This document shows positions 8,452 to 47,013 of a stretch of 49,247 bases of DNA, piece after piece. How positions within the stretch are numbered: position 1 is the first letter of the stretch; the number at the start of each line of letters is the position of its first letter. Both the position numbers and the translations under genes were made by a program. The notes under the pieces were generated by a model, which had not been told where the DNA came from, made no database searches, and saw only the letters and a program-made list of their open reading frames with translations. This stretch comes from Bacillota bacterium (GTDB lineage Bacteria; Bacillota; Dehalobacteriia; UBA4068; UBA4997), in contig JAFQHN010000012.1 of assembly GCA_017397935.1 (NCBI GenBank), forward strand, positions 1-49,247. The letters are read 5' to 3'.

Positions 8452-9546
8452 TTATTTATTCTGCGGTTCATCTGCCTGCTTCTGCCGCAGCCGCTGCTCC
8501 TGCCCTGCATAAGCTTCAATGATCTTCTGCACCAGGGGATGACGCACCACATCCAGATCCGTCAGATAACAGAAGGCAATATCCTTTATGCCGTGCAGCA
8601 CCCTCTGCGCATCCTTCAAGCCGGATCGTGTACCGCCGGGCAGGTCTATCTGCGTAATGTCACCGGTGATAACTGCCTGACTGCCCATGCCCATACGGGT
8701 CAGAAACATCTTCATCTGCGGCGGAGTGGTGTTCTGCGCCTCATCCAAAATAATAAACGAGTTATCCAGCGTGCGCCCGCGCATATACGCCAACGGCACA
8801 ACCTCAATCAAACCGCGCTCCATATATTTGGCCGCTGTTTCCGCCCCCAAAACATCATCCAGCGCATCATAAATCGGCCGCAGATAAGGGTTTACCTTCT
8901 CCTGCAAGTCACCGGGCAAAAAACCCAGCTTCTCACCGGCCTCCACCGCAGGGCGCACCAGCACCAGCTTTTTAACCTTACGCTTTTTCAGGGCATCCGC
9001 CGCCTTCACCACCGCCAGATAGGTTTTGCCGGTACCGGCCGGCCCAATACCAAAGGTGATGTCATAGCGGTCAATAGCCTGCAAATAAACATTCTGCCCA
9101 TAAGATTTCGCCCGAATCTGCTTGCCCTTGGGTGTGGTGTAGATAACACGGCTCAGCTCCTCAGCGCTGCCCTGTTCGGCACCGCCCATCCGCTGCTCCC
9201 ACAGCGCGATCTGATAATTAAGCGCCACCCGGTCCAGCTCGCTGCCTTGCTCGGCCAGCTTAAACAGGTTTTGCAGCACCGCAGCCGCCCTCTCCACCGG
9301 CGTTTTCTCACCAAAAATCAGCAATTCCTCACCGCGGGGCACCAGCCGCACCTGCAAGCCGCCCTCCAACAATCGCAGCAGTACCTCGCCGTTATCCAGC
9401 AATTTAACCAACAGCGCATTGGTCAGACGCAGATTTTTGCACGCCTCGGCTGAGGGTTGGCGCAGCGGCACCGCCCCCATGCCCAAATTCGCTTCTTTGT
9501 TGTCAATCATACCGTTATTATTCAGCTGATTATTCATATTTGCCAA
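8452..9546 (-). CDS. PhoH-family ATPase (YbeZ-like)
   Basis: This 364-residue protein is a PhoH-like P-loop ATPase thought to act on RNA together with YbeY. The N-terminal third resembles the KH-like region of the family. Walker A is GPAGTGKTYLAV and Walker B is FIILDEAQN, followed by the TRMGMGSQAVITGD sensor region. The best start is TTG at 9546, seven bases after GGAGG. The in-frame ATG three codons later lies 16 bases from that site. It is the first gene of the phoH-7TM-HD-ybeY-era-recO cluster. A weak promoter candidate (TTGTAT, 18 bases, TATAAA) lies near 9610-9650. Confidence 0.93.
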   Translation of the reverse strand: MANMNNQLNNNGMIDNKEANLGMGAVPLRQPSAEACKNLRLTNALLVKLLDNGEVLLRLLEGGLQVRLVPRGEELLIFGEKTPVERAAAVLQNLFKLAEQGSELDRVALNYQIALWEQRMGGAEQGSAEELSRVIYTTPKGKQIRAKSYGQNVYLQAIDRYDITFGIGPAGTGKTYLAVVKAADALKKRKVKKLVLVRPAVEAGEKLGFLPGDLQEKVNPYLRPIYDALDDVLGAETAAKYMERGLIEVVPLAYMRGRTLDNSFIILDEAQNTTPPQMKMFLTRMGMGSQAVITGDITQIDLPGGTRSGLKDAQRVLHGIKDIAFCYLTDLDVVRHPLVQKIIEAYAGQEQRLRQKQADEPQNK

Positions 9547-9758: not shown

Positions 9759-9787
9759 TTGACAAATCCAAAACTATTCGCTATAAT
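9759..9787 (+). promoter_or_regulatory. Consensus sigma-A promoter for first lipoprotein gene
   Basis: TTGACA and TATAAT, both perfect consensus, are separated by 17 bases. The start of transcription would fall near 9794, giving a leader of about 194 bases before the coding region. Confidence 0.85.
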
Positions 9788-9793
9788 TCATGC

Positions 9794-9926
9794 CATAGTA
9801 AAACTTGGTATAAATTGTAGGACAGTAAAACGGTTGAGTTCCCAAGCAACTTATTTTTCATTTTGCCCATACCCCGACTGATTATTGCCCTTGCTGTCCA
9901 AGATTTTGCAGCAAGCGGCTTTTTTG
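9794..9926 (+). promoter_or_regulatory. Candidate attenuator/riboswitch leader, copy 1
   Basis: The leader contains a motif at 9817-9850 (GTAG-ACAGTAAAA-GGTT-AG-T----AGCAA, dashes variable) that is conserved in the second leader at 11171-11205. An intrinsic terminator follows at 9887-9926. The AGCAA of the motif is complementary to the TTGCT in the 5' arm of the terminator, so an antiterminator pairing is possible. GGACAG at 9820-9825 can also pair with CTGTCC at 9894-9899. I do not recognise a named RNA class. The regulatory role is an inference from the architecture. Confidence 0.5.
9887..9926 (+). terminator. Leader terminator before first lipoprotein gene
   Basis: GCC-CTTGCT pairs with AGCAAG-C-GGC, with one bulged C, followed by six T. 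It stands between the promoter and the gene, so it would act as a regulated attenuator and not as an end-of-operon signal. Confidence 0.75.
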
Positions 9927-9987
9927 CTTTTTAATCAATTTGTACCCGGCTTACCAAATTATTAAAACTTCTCAGGAGGTACTCATT

Positions 9988-10977
9988 ATGAAAAAAGTAT
10001 TCAAAATGCTGGCGATGTCCATGGTTTCCGTATTGGCGCTGACAAGCTTTGCAGGCTGCGGCGGCGAGGATGCCAAAACCGACACCACTTACAAAATCGG
10101 CGTTATGCAGTTGATGGATCATGAGGCGCTGAATCTTGCGCAGGACGGTTTTATTGCAGCGCTGACCGAAAACGGCTATGTTGACGGCGACAACATCACT
10201 CTGCTGCTGGAAAACGGCCAGGGCGATACCAACAACCTGTCCACCATCGCTGATAAATTTGTAGCCGAGAATGTTGACCTGGCATTTACTATTGCCACTC
10301 CGTCCACTCAGGCCATGGCCGGCAAGACTACCACCATCCCGATTGTTGCCACCGCCGTTACCAGCTTCACCGAGGCCGGTCTGGTAGCGTCCGATGAACA
10401 GCCCGGCGGCAACATCACCGGCACCACCGATATGAACCCCATCTCTGACCAGATCGATCTGCTGCTTACTCTGGCGCCCGATACCAAAACCGTTGGTTTC
10501 CTTTACACCGCGTCCGAGGATAACTCCGTTTTGCAGTGCAAAATTGCCAAGGAGTATCTGGAAGCAGAAGGCATCGCAACCGTAGAGCGCACCATCACCA
10601 ACACCAATGACGTTCAGCAGGCAACCACCGCCATCGTAGAGGAATGTGACGCCATTTACATCCCCACCGATAACAACTTTGCCTCTGCCATGCCCACCGT
10701 TAATGAGGTCACCATGTCCGCAGGCATCCCCGTTATTGCCGGCGAATCCAACATGGTCAAAACCGGCGGTACTGCCACCGTGGGCATCACCTATTACGGT
10801 ATCGGCTATCAGGCCGGCTTAATGGCAATCGACATTTTGGCCAACGGCGCTGACCCGGCCACCATGCCCATCAAAGGCTCCTCGGAGTTTGAATATTGCC
10901 TGAACGGCGATGTTATGGATGCTCTGGGTATTGCAATCCCGGCTGATCTGGCTGAATTTGTTTACCGCGCCGAATAA
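9988..10977 (+). CDS. ABC transporter substrate-binding lipoprotein (TrpX-like), copy 1
   Basis: This 329-residue lipoprotein belongs to the ABC_sub_bind (TrpX-like) periplasmic-binding family, a group linked to uptake of amino acids or related small molecules. The signal peptide ends in the lipobox FAGC with Cys24 as the lipidated residue. The mature part starts KIGVMQLMDHEALN and includes the family blocks NGQGDTNNLSTIADKF, IPIVATAVTSF, GNITGTTDMNP and GTATVGITYYGIGYQAG. The ATG at 9988 has AGGAGG eight bases upstream. It is about 80% identical to the gene at 11377 by eye. The substrate is unknown and may be tryptophan, tyrosine or something else. Confidence 0.9.
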   Translation: MKKVFKMLAMSMVSVLALTSFAGCGGEDAKTDTTYKIGVMQLMDHEALNLAQDGFIAALTENGYVDGDNITLLLENGQGDTNNLSTIADKFVAENVDLAFTIATPSTQAMAGKTTTIPIVATAVTSFTEAGLVASDEQPGGNITGTTDMNPISDQIDLLLTLAPDTKTVGFLYTASEDNSVLQCKIAKEYLEAEGIATVERTITNTNDVQQATTAIVEECDAIYIPTDNNFASAMPTVNEVTMSAGIPVIAGESNMVKTGGTATVGITYYGIGYQAGLMAIDILANGADPATMPIKGSSEFEYCLNGDVMDALGIAIPADLAEFVYRAE

Positions 10978-11057
10978 TTACCCGCTTACAATTTAATCAG
11001 GGCTTACCAAACAGCATGGGCCGGCATTCGCTTGTCGGCTCATGCTTAAAATTATTG

Positions 11058-11086
11058 TTGACTTTCTGCGATATTTTGGTTATAAT
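11058..11086 (+). promoter_or_regulatory. Sigma-A promoter for second lipoprotein gene
   Basis: TTGACT and TATAAT are spaced by 17 bases. It lies 80 bases after the first lipoprotein stop, so the second gene and the permease/ATPase genes can be expressed separately. A second TATAAT lies at about 11132 without a clear -35 box. Confidence 0.8.
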
Positions 11087-11092
11087 TTAGCT

Positions 11093-11293
11093 TGTAGTAA
11101 CTGGGTATCACTTGTAGGCATCCCAATCCGGTATAATCAAAATTGCAGCATCACAAAGTAGTACATAAATGTAGTACAGTAAAATGGTTAAGCTTCTCAG
11201 CAAAACTCTGTGTTTCAGCAGGCTTTTGGTAATGTGCTGATGGCCCTTGCTCGCTTGGCGTTTTACGCTTATCCGCGGCAAGAGGCTTTTTTT
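11093..11293 (+). promoter_or_regulatory. Candidate attenuator/riboswitch leader, copy 2
   Basis: This leader shares the motif at 11171-11205 with copy 1. The identical blocks are GTAG, ACAGTAAAA, GGTT, AG and AGCAA. It also ends in a terminator that contains TTGCT in the 5' arm. It is longer upstream of the motif than copy 1 and carries a short direct repeat GTAGTAC (11156-11162 and 11171-11177). The sequence between motif and terminator differs from copy 1, which suggests that only the motif and the terminator pairing are kept. The ligand or factor is unknown. Confidence 0.5.
11243..11293 (+). terminator. Leader terminator before second lipoprotein gene
   Basis: GCC-CTTGC-CG pairs with CG-GCAAG-GGC, with small bulges and an inner GCG/CGC stem, followed by seven T. 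It precedes the coding region by about 80 bases. Confidence 0.75.
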
Positions 11294-11376
11294 AGTTTAA
11301 TCCTACAATTTATTACAGGCTGGCAAGCAGTACCGGTTCAACAAAATTATTATATTTTTCAGGAGGTTTTTATACC

Positions 11377-12360
11377 ATGAAAAAAGTACTGAGATTGTTG
11401 TCCTTGCTGTCCATACTTTGTTTAGTCTTTACCGGCTGCGGCAGCGAGGACGCCGAAAACCCCAACGCCGAGTTCAAAATCGGCATCATGCAGCTGATGG
11501 ATCATGAGGCACTTAATCAGGCGCAGGACGGTTTTATCGACGCGCTGGCCGATAACGGCTATGTTGACGGAGAAAACATCACTCTGCTGCTGGAAAACGG
11601 CCAGGGTGACACCAACAACCTGTCCACCATCGCCGACAAATTTATGGCCGAGGAAGTAGATCTGGCATTTACCATCGCCACTCCGTCCACTCAGGCCATG
11701 GCCGGCAAAACCACCAGCATCCCGATTGTCGCCACCGCCGTTACCAGCTTTACTGCGGCCGGCCTGGTACAGTCCGATGAGCAACCCGGCGGCAACATCA
11801 CCGGCACCTCTGATATGAACCCTATTGCTGACCAAATGGAGTTGCTGCTGACTCTCTGCCCCGATGCCAAAACCGTCGGTTTCCTTTACACCGCATCCGA
11901 GGATAACTCCATTCTCCAATGCAAAATTGCCAGGGAGTATCTGGAAGCCAAAGGTATTGCCACCGTTGAGCGCACCATCATCAACACCAATGATGTGCAG
12001 CAGGCAGCCACCGCGCTGGTAGAGGAATGTGACGCCGTTTATGTTCCCACCGACAACAACTGCGCTTCGGCCATGCCCACCATCAGCGAGGCCACGATGA
12101 CCGCAGGTATTCCGCTGATCGTCGGCGAAACCAACAACGTTAAGGCAGGCGGCACCGCCACCGTAGGCATCACCTATTACGGTCTGGGCTATCAGGCCGG
12201 CTTGATGGCCATTGATATTCTGGTTAACGGCGCTGACCCGGCCACCATGCCGATTCAGAGCAGCAGCGAGTTTGAATATTGCCTGAACGGCACCCTGCTG
12301 GACCAACTGGGCATTGAGATTCCCGCTGAATTGCAGCAGTACGCCTTCTATGCTGAATAA
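11377..12360 (+). CDS. ABC transporter substrate-binding lipoprotein (TrpX-like), copy 2
   Basis: This 327-residue protein is a close paralogue of the lipoprotein at 9988, with the same blocks (FKIGIMQLMDHEALNQAQDG, NGQGDTNNLSTIADKF, GTATVGITYYGLGYQAG). Its signal peptide is diverged and ends in the lipobox FTGC (Cys21). The ATG has AGGAGG about nine bases upstream. The permease and ATPase genes follow directly, so this copy is the one physically joined to the transporter. The duplication includes promoter and leader, so both copies probably answer to the same signal. They may differ in affinity or substrate. Confidence 0.9.
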   Translation: MKKVLRLLSLLSILCLVFTGCGSEDAENPNAEFKIGIMQLMDHEALNQAQDGFIDALADNGYVDGENITLLLENGQGDTNNLSTIADKFMAEEVDLAFTIATPSTQAMAGKTTSIPIVATAVTSFTAAGLVQSDEQPGGNITGTSDMNPIADQMELLLTLCPDAKTVGFLYTASEDNSILQCKIAREYLEAKGIATVERTIINTNDVQQAATALVEECDAVYVPTDNNCASAMPTISEATMTAGIPLIVGETNNVKAGGTATVGITYYGLGYQAGLMAIDILVNGADPATMPIQSSSEFEYCLNGTLLDQLGIEIPAELQQYAFYAE

Positions 12361-12418: not shown

Positions 12419-13336
12419 ATGCTTAACATTATTTTAGGTGCAATCGCGCTCGGCTCTCTTTGGGCCGTTATGACAATGGGCGTTTACATTACTTACCGCC
12501 TGCTGGACATCGCCGATCTTTCGGTCGAAGGCTCTCTGGTAACAGGTGCGGCCGTTGGTGCCGTCTGCATTACCGGCGGCATGAATCCGTGGCTCGCCAC
12601 CATTATGGCTCTGCTGGCCGGCATGGTTTGCGGCCTGGCCACCGGCCTGCTGCACACCAAACTGCGTATTCCGCCGCTGCTGGCCGGCATCTTAACCATG
12701 ATTGCGCTCTATTCCATCAACCTGCGTATCATGGGCCGCGCCAACATCACCCTGCTTCATGTAGACAGCGTGTTTACCCCGCTGCAAAACCTGCCCTTTA
12801 TGGCCGGTTTGGAGGCGCAGGGTATCATGACCAAAAACGTAGCCATTCTTATCTGCGGCCTGCTTATCTGCTTTGTGGTTTCGGCCTTCCTGTACTGGTT
12901 CTTCGGCACCGAGATCGGCTGTTCCATCCGCGCCACCGGCAACAATCAGCAGATGGTGCGTGCGCTGGGTATCAACACCGACACCATGATCCTGCTGGGC
13001 CTTATGCTCTCCAACGGTCTGGTGGCCATGTCCGGCGCCCTGATTGCCCAAAACCAGTCTTACGCCGACGTGCAGATGGGCACCGGCTCCATCGTAATCG
13101 GTCTGGCCTCTGTTATCATCGGTGAGGTTCTGTTCGGCAGCACCAAATCGTTTAAGCGCACCCTGCTGGCCATGACGCTGGGCGCCATTACATACCGTAT
13201 CATCATCGCGCTGGTACTCAAAGCAGGTATGCCGGCCAACGATTTGAAGCTGTTTACCGCCATCACCGTGGCTATCTGTCTGGCTCTGCCGCAAATCAAA
13301 TCCTGGGGCCGCAAATTGAAGGGAGGCCATAACTAA
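12419..13336 (+). CDS. ABC transporter permease (TrpY-like)
   Basis: This 305-residue integral membrane protein has eight or more hydrophobic segments and belongs to the BPD_transp_2 (LivH/RbsC-like) permease family that partners TrpX-like binding proteins. Features include the YITYRLLDIADLSVEGS segment near the N-terminus, conserved in this subgroup, and EIGCSIRATGNNQQMVRALG, the cytoplasmic loop that contacts the ATPase. The ATG is preceded by AAAGAGG. Its stop codon overlaps the start of the ATPase gene by one base (TAATG), which implies coupled translation. It is the only permease for the two lipoproteins. Confidence 0.9.
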   Translation: MLNIILGAIALGSLWAVMTMGVYITYRLLDIADLSVEGSLVTGAAVGAVCITGGMNPWLATIMALLAGMVCGLATGLLHTKLRIPPLLAGILTMIALYSINLRIMGRANITLLHVDSVFTPLQNLPFMAGLEAQGIMTKNVAILICGLLICFVVSAFLYWFFGTEIGCSIRATGNNQQMVRALGINTDTMILLGLMLSNGLVAMSGALIAQNQSYADVQMGTGSIVIGLASVIIGEVLFGSTKSFKRTLLAMTLGAITYRIIIALVLKAGMPANDLKLFTAITVAICLALPQIKSWGRKLKGGHN

Positions 13337-14130
13337 TGCTGAAAATTGACAACATCTACAAAACCTTCAATATCGGCACCATTAACGAGAAGCACGCGCT
13401 CAACGGTCTTTCTCTCCACTTGCAGCCGGGTGATTTCGTCACCGTCATCGGCGGCAACGGCGCAGGTAAATCCACTATGTTAAACGCAATCTCCGGTGTC
13501 TGGCCGATCGACTCCGGCTCCATTGTCATCAACGGCAACGATGTCACCGCCCTGCCGGAATACAAACGCGCCATCCATCTGGGCCGTGTTTTCCAGGATC
13601 CCATGCTGGGCAGCGCCGCCAATATGCAGATCCAGGAGAATCTGGCGCTGGCCCTGCGCCGCGGCAAAAAACGCACCCTGCGCTGGGGCATCACCGCGCA
13701 AGAGCGTGAGCAGTACCATGACCTGCTGAAAACCCTTGATTTGGGGTTGGAGGACCGCTTGACCTCCAAGGTTGGCTTGCTTTCCGGCGGACAACGGCAG
13801 GCTCTCACCCTGCTTATGGCCACGCTGACCAAGCCTGACCTGCTGCTGCTGGATGAACACACTGCCGCGCTTGACCCCAAAACTGCCGCCAAGGTACTGG
13901 AAATCTCCGACCGCATTATTGCCGAGAACAAGCTGACCGCGCTGATGGTGACCCACAATATGCATGACGCCATCACCCACGGCAACCGCCTGATCATGCT
14001 GAAAGACGGCCGAATCATTCTGGATATTGCCGGCGAGGAGAAAAAACACCTCACCGTAGAGGATTTGCTGGCCAAGTTTGCCATCGCAGCCGGCGAGGAA
14101 ATGGCCAACGACCGTATGCTGCTGGGCTGA
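13336..14130 (+). CDS. ABC transporter ATP-binding protein (TrpZ-like)
   Basis: This 264-residue ATPase energises the importer. Walker A is GGNGAGKST, the Q-loop is in VFQDPMLGSA, the signature is LLSGGQRQALTLLMATL, and Walker B is LLLLDEHTAALDP, with a switch histidine in MVTHNMHD. The DEHTAALDP form is typical of this transporter subgroup. It overlaps the permease gene by one base and is followed by a clear terminator, so it ends the operon. Confidence 0.93.
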   Translation: MLKIDNIYKTFNIGTINEKHALNGLSLHLQPGDFVTVIGGNGAGKSTMLNAISGVWPIDSGSIVINGNDVTALPEYKRAIHLGRVFQDPMLGSAANMQIQENLALALRRGKKRTLRWGITAQEREQYHDLLKTLDLGLEDRLTSKVGLLSGGQRQALTLLMATLTKPDLLLLDEHTAALDPKTAAKVLEISDRIIAENKLTALMVTHNMHDAITHGNRLIMLKDGRIILDIAGEEKKHLTVEDLLAKFAIAAGEEMANDRMLLG

Positions 14131-46765: not shown

Positions 46766-47013
46766 AGCCAATTATACAGCAATAGGCGGGCATAATATGC
46801 CCGTTTTTCCACCTGATCCCAGCAGTGTTTTACACGCAAGCAGGTCTCCCGGCTTAGCATCATCCTAATAAGGCGTCTTCCCATCGGTTTCCCGACAGTG
46901 ACTTATTGCCTGTTCGTCAGCTTCACGGTTGCTGGGTTAGCCCAGAAATTTCATCTGATTCCCTCGTAGTGCGGCAGCAAATGCCTTCAACGGTACCTCT
47001 CGGCACAAATGCG
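46766..47013 (-). promoter_or_regulatory. Cobalamin (B12) riboswitch
   Basis: The minus strand carries the B12 box AAGCCGGGAGACCTGC (46837-46855). It also carries GTCACTGTCGGGAAACCGAT and GGGAAGACGCC, the GGGAATCAGATGAAA block, and CCGTGAAGCTGACG, all in the order of the class. A CGGGCA/TGCCCG hairpin at 46787-46803 and a terminator at 46733-46765 follow. Together they would stop transcription of the btuFCD-cobU operon when adenosylcobalamin or a related corrinoid is plentiful. Confidence 0.93.

Follow-up and report, generated by a model that had tools for sequence, protein, structure and literature searches.

Leader control of TrpX-family transporters

T-box leaders (RF00230) of trpXYZ-type operons lie 5′ of ABC_sub_bind lipoprotein-permease-ATPase operons and carry a terminator in the 5′UTR. 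The Streptococcus suis trpXYZ operon is under T-box control and is induced by Trp limitation (PMC9382623). Distant orthologs of the lipoprotein genes described here (L016 and L017) stand behind T-boxes that read UUC (Phe) at the specifier position, and the T-boxes of L076 and L081 read UGG (Trp), in both cases judged by eye from alignments. L076 and L081 belong to a group of other ABC_sub_bind genes of the genus (L076, L077, and L078–L083) that follow T-boxes; these paralogs are more distant, at 36–38% identity. Because T-boxes occur at L016 and L017, at the genus paralogs, and at S. suis trpXYZ, control by leaders of the terminator type is common in this family of transporters. Several of the genus T-boxes score slightly under the RF00230 gathering score and may escape annotation pipelines. 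L077 (G000:C13:58727-59644), which lies in the same genome as the leaders under study, has an apparent internal TAA stop and may be a pseudogene.

The window, meaning the whole analyzed stretch of 49,247 nucleotides from a gut bacterium, contains two leaders ahead of tandem lipoprotein genes. They share with T-box leaders the position 5′ of an ABC_sub_bind operon and the terminator in the 5′UTR, but they lack the TGGNACCGCG element and the specifier loop and are too short. RF00230 does not match them at the gathering score or at E values up to 10, which places them outside the T-box family, whereas the same Rfam library detects T-boxes at L016, L017, L076, L077, and L081. The first-pass annotation could not match the leaders to a named class and proposed an Rfam search; across 4227 families, that search gives no match to the leaders at the gathering score, and no match at E ≤ 10 is credible, in agreement with the annotation. 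The matches at the gathering score in the window are 5S, a cobalamin riboswitch, and two tRNAs, all outside the leaders. The cobalamin riboswitch is at 46822-47003 on the minus strand (80.5 bits), and by sequence the minus-strand genes downstream of it resemble genes for a B12-type periplasmic binding protein, a permease, an ATPase, and a CobU-like protein.

Two further systems are comparable in layout. TRAP-controlled trp leaders of Bacillus likewise have a terminator ahead of a transport gene that may be related to tryptophan, but the window leaders lack, by eye, the regular series of (G/U)AG repeats. The TRAP gene (PF02081) is not found in the genome by a search that is positive in B. subtilis, and the leaders do not qualify as TRAP leaders. 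Short-aptamer terminator riboswitches share the promoter, the 5′ motif, the intrinsic terminator, and, in leader 1, a possible alternative fold; the window leaders differ in having no phylogenetic conservation, covariation, or Rfam match. The favored reading, held with moderate confidence, is that they form a lineage-restricted transcription-attenuation leader of a TrpX-family ABC transporter that was duplicated with its gene.

Organization of the locus

The transporter genes and their divergent neighbor are as follows.

8452-9546, minus strand: PhoH-like gene (named by sequence), divergent from the adjoining SBP1
9988-10977, plus strand: SBP1, ABC_sub_bind/TrpX-like lipoprotein (PF04392, E 6.6e-75), with the Shine-Dalgarno sequence (SD) AGGAGG immediately 5′
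11377-12360, plus strand: SBP2, second ABC_sub_bind/TrpX-like lipoprotein (PF04392, E 1.2e-76)
12419-13336, plus strand: ABC permease (PF02653, E 3.5e-28), downstream of SBP2
13336-14130, plus strand: ABC ATPase (PF00005, E 7.6e-28), downstream of the permease

Both lipoproteins belong to the wider PF04392 family. Their scores against the TrpX equivalog model NF041285 are 310.6 and 313.4 bits, under its cut-off of 390, and because of this shortfall the transporter's substrate can be called no more than probably an aromatic amino acid.

Promoters, shared motif, and terminators

The leader elements, all on the plus strand, are as follows.

9759-9787, plus strand: promoter P1, TTGACA-17-TATAAT, 12 of 12 consensus positions
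9810-9849, plus strand: leader 1 shared motif, ATAAATTGTAGGACAGTAAAACGGTTGAGTTCCCAAGCAA, from local alignment with leader 2
9887-9925, plus strand: intrinsic terminator T1, GCCCUUGCUG...CAGCAAGcGGC-U6, hairpin of -16.1 kcal/mol
11058-11086, plus strand: promoter P2, TTGACT-17-TATAAT, 11 of 12 consensus positions
11165-11203, plus strand: leader 2 shared motif, ATAAATGTAGTACAGTAAAATGGTTAAGCTTCTCAGCAA, from local alignment with leader 1
11242-11294, plus strand: intrinsic terminator T2, GGCCCUUGC...GCAAGaGGC-U7, hairpin of -22.3 kcal/mol

The first-pass annotation had described a consensus promoter, a shared upstream motif, and an intrinsic terminator before the coding start of each lipoprotein gene, with diverged sequence between motif and terminator, and all four elements of this description hold. 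The start codons lie approximately 200 nt (SBP1) and 290 nt (SBP2) beyond each gene's own promoter. The motifs, of approximately 40 nt, are alike in 34 of 41 aligned columns, and their alignment score of 41 is not reached in any of 1000 dinucleotide shuffles (maximum 35). The terminator arms are also alike, and the intervening stretch is much less so. This better preservation of motif and arms points to possible constraint beyond descent.

A simple terminator scan overlooks both T1 and T2, presumably on account of their long loops and bulge. Each leader nevertheless holds a G+C-rich hairpin followed by a U-tract between promoter and coding start, the layout of an intrinsic-terminator attenuator. 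Neither leader has a plausible promoter in the interval from terminator to SD. The terminators are therefore internal to the leaders, and a free-standing sRNA upstream of a gene with its own promoter is rejected on the same ground.

With three mismatches allowed, the motif core has no match elsewhere in the window, and the 1.59-Mb genome holds no exact or one-mismatch match to the motif besides the two copies. A direct near-repeat, GTAGTACA...GTAGTACA, lies at 11155-11178 in leader 2, just before and within the motif, and contains the odd palindrome TGTAGTACA.

Probable duplication of gene and leader

The SBP1 and SBP2 proteins share 79% identity, and their genes share 72% identity at fourfold-degenerate sites, compared with 50–67% at fourfold sites for all other pairs tested. 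These values fit a young tandem duplicate in this lineage, with gene conversion as the alternative. In the tree, SBP1, SBP2, and the pair from G002 and G004 appear without resolved branching. Because the paralogs would be a young tandem duplicate, the likeness of their leaders would be largely shared descent: the motif identity is modestly above the neutral 72%, and the motif was selected as the best segment. Likeness between the leaders of recent tandem duplicates is, alone, not evidence of a conserved RNA.

The main rival explanation starts from this point. It holds that the leader is a constitutive attenuator or a neutral 5′UTR, in which the terminators allow a fixed, partial read-through and the motif persists by recent descent only. 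The fourfold identity of the paralogs nearly accounts for the motif similarity as this rival proposes, but it does not predict that the sequence between motif and terminator arms would have diverged more than they have. A constitutive leader is possible, if doubtful, and the comparison with relatives bears on it in both directions.

Comparison with related genomes

The genus sample comprises nine genomes, the window genome and eight others, and includes metagenome-assembled ones. In seven of the eight congeners, the orthologous gene and promoter are present with a 5′UTR of approximately 60–90 nt that contains neither motif nor terminator. Three of these (G002, G004, and G005) have the gene beside a PhoH-like sequence with the same promoter, approximately 75–90 nt from the start codon, and four (G001, G006, G007, and G008) carry the gene as a tandem pair downstream of a single short 5′UTR of approximately 60–85 nt. 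The very short 5′UTRs of G006 and G007 (L013 and L014) carry a hairpin, AAAGGCGATTT(T/C)GCCTTT, near the presumed transcription start, which is possibly a 5′ stabilizer.

The remaining congener, G003, has the gene beside a PhoH-like gene and a leader of approximately 145 nt with a degenerate core in GTAGAACAGTAAGATG and GCCCTTGC. Its likeness to leaders 1 and 2 alone is weak, since 61 and 19 of 1000 shuffles, respectively, do as well. A motif pattern search returns two exact matches in the window genome and one in G003, with the remainder at control level. This distribution suits the constitutive reading insofar as the leader is freely gained or lost within the genus, whereas the recurrence of the core GTAGNACAGTAA in the G003 leader does not.

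The first-pass annotation had named non-conservation of the motif and its terminator pairing in related genomes as evidence against its reading, and had proposed a model built from leaders of homologous operons. Beyond the absence of motif and terminator in the seven congeners, a covariance model built from the two leaders recovers only those two copies, with no other credible match in 9 genus, 43 class, and 299 phylum genomes. A sequence-only model was built and set aside, its information content being too low for megabase searches. A DNA similarity search with leader 1 across the genus gives no leader homologue, and viral contigs contain no relative of the leaders. Three low-ranking covariance-model matches were judged to be chance: L101 is the terminator region that follows a gene for a ribosomal protein (by sequence, L7/L12), L102 runs antisense inside an ORF, and L099 scores below both.

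The same results weigh on the proposal of a new riboswitch class, in which a ligand-binding aptamer would have the motif at its core and would control the terminator by its formation. A motif and terminator ahead of transporter genes with no Rfam match are what such a class would look like, but homologues are confined to the two copies, and seven of eight congeners lack the element at their orthologous gene. A conserved, covarying aptamer is not seen in related leaders, of which few exist for such a test.

Folding and alternative pairing

The pairing of the motif's AGCAA with TTGCT of the terminator 5′ arm was proposed in the first-pass annotation as the signature of a switch. Both words are present in both copies, but the pairing is at chance level and energetically poor. 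A 5-nt complement to the terminator arm arises in 14–24% of composition shuffles of the motif; joint shuffling of the two copies by aligned columns gives 8.6%. Forcing the pairing costs 10.9 kcal/mol in leader 1 (-16.6 versus -27.5) and 11.1 kcal/mol in leader 2 (-40.1 versus -51.2). Each copy inherited its motif and arm as a unit, and the second therefore adds no independent evidence.

In favor of an aptamer, each motif copy can be folded into a small hairpin, GGUU-RA-GYU...AGC-AAC(U). Between the copies, however, six of its seven pairs are invariant and one varies on one side only, leaving no compensatory change, and the whole structure is equaled by 126 of 500 shuffles. Two or three sequences are in any case too few for a meaningful covariation test. 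With the AGCAA/TTGCT pairing at chance level as well, a new riboswitch class is unlikely. A more specific version is distinctly unlikely: a young, genus-restricted RNA switch would have replaced the T-box control of the family and would sense a free amino acid or other metabolite directly, with GUAGNACAGUAARAYGGUU in the binding site. If the leaders bound an amino acid, they would show the recent origin of a riboswitch in one lineage.

Leader 1 has better alternatives to the AGCAA/TTGCT pairing, in which GGACAGUAA pairs with UUGCUGUCC or AAAACUUGG pairs with CCAAGAUUUU. One complement, recovered by inverted-repeat analysis and folding, is specific to leader 1.

9820-9828, plus strand: candidate antiterminator strand, GGACAGTAA, forming 9 bp with TTGCTGTCC (9891-9899), which is part of the T1 5′ arm and loop

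A complement of 9 bp has a shuffle p of 0.08. The best antiterminated fold (-27.5 kcal/mol) and the terminated fold (-26.0 kcal/mol) of leader 1 are near-isoenergetic. The counterpart is absent from leader 2, where the longest complement is 7 (p 0.75) and the predicted fold contains the terminator with no comparable alternative. Whole-leader folding energies are unremarkable and no more stable than shuffles (z -0.64 for leader 1 and -0.56 for leader 2), as a constitutive leader would also have it.

Protein binding and leader-peptide alternatives

The motif may instead be a protein binding site, either a DNA operator or the site of an RNA-binding antiterminator, and not an aptamer. The palindrome TGTAGTACA and the near-repeat of GTAGTACA in leader 2 would suit such a site, but leader 1 and G003 have only imperfect versions of the palindrome. 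In these two leaders, the distance from the presumed start to the motif downstream is approximately 20–30 nt, a consistent spacing that leader 2 breaks at approximately 75 nt. The genome has no other such site and does not encode TRAP, the known Trp RNA-binding attenuator, making a protein site very unlikely.

Attenuation by ribosome stalling at aromatic codons of a leader peptide is hardly credible. Short frames cross the leaders, one from TTG at 9834 with two Tyr and two Phe codons before its stop and one of 18 codons from ATG at 11184, but start codon, Shine-Dalgarno sequence, and frame are conserved neither between the two copies nor in G003.

Proposed mechanism of attenuation

In the favored attenuation reading, RNA polymerase would start at P1 or P2 and reach an intrinsic terminator 100–200 nt on. 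The substrate-binding lipoprotein would be expressed only from read-through transcripts, which from P2 would also give the permease and ATPase. The 5′ part of leader 1 (AAAACUUGG, GGACAGUAA) would pair with the terminator 5′ arm and loop and cause antitermination; because the two folds are near-isoenergetic, read-through there is plausibly adjustable. T1 and T2 would be active in vivo, read-through would presumably be regulated, and the signal would be tied to aromatic amino acid supply. The whole promoter-leader-gene unit would have been copied during tandem duplication of the lipoprotein gene.

The promoters, terminators, co-transcriptional folds, two-state energies of leader 1, and shared motif argue for this account, as do the high fourfold identity of the paralogs, the congener genes with the same promoter but no such leader, the position of the terminators inside the leaders, and the T-box control elsewhere in the family. 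Counting against it, the G003 leader, the only other one with the core motif, has no evident terminator, the leader 1 alternative pairing is not kept in leader 2, and whole-leader stability does not exceed that of shuffles; T1 and T2 may merely hold expression at a constant low level. Of the earlier proposal of an attenuator or riboswitch, the promoter-leader-terminator layout fit for attenuation stands, whereas the aptamer-like motif pairing with the terminator, and with it the inference of a riboswitch, fails the annotation's own test of conservation and is not supported. The comparison suggests rapid leader turnover, in which T-boxes, plain short 5′UTRs, and terminator-bearing leaders replace one another in a single transporter family.

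Directly 3′ of SBP1, at 11013-11046 on the plus strand, is a 14-bp hairpin of -25.5 kcal/mol (z -6.24) with an A/T-rich rather than U-rich tail. It is probably the 3′ end or a stabilizer of the SBP1 transcript. T2 would also halt read-through from SBP1, though this hairpin may already end that transcript.
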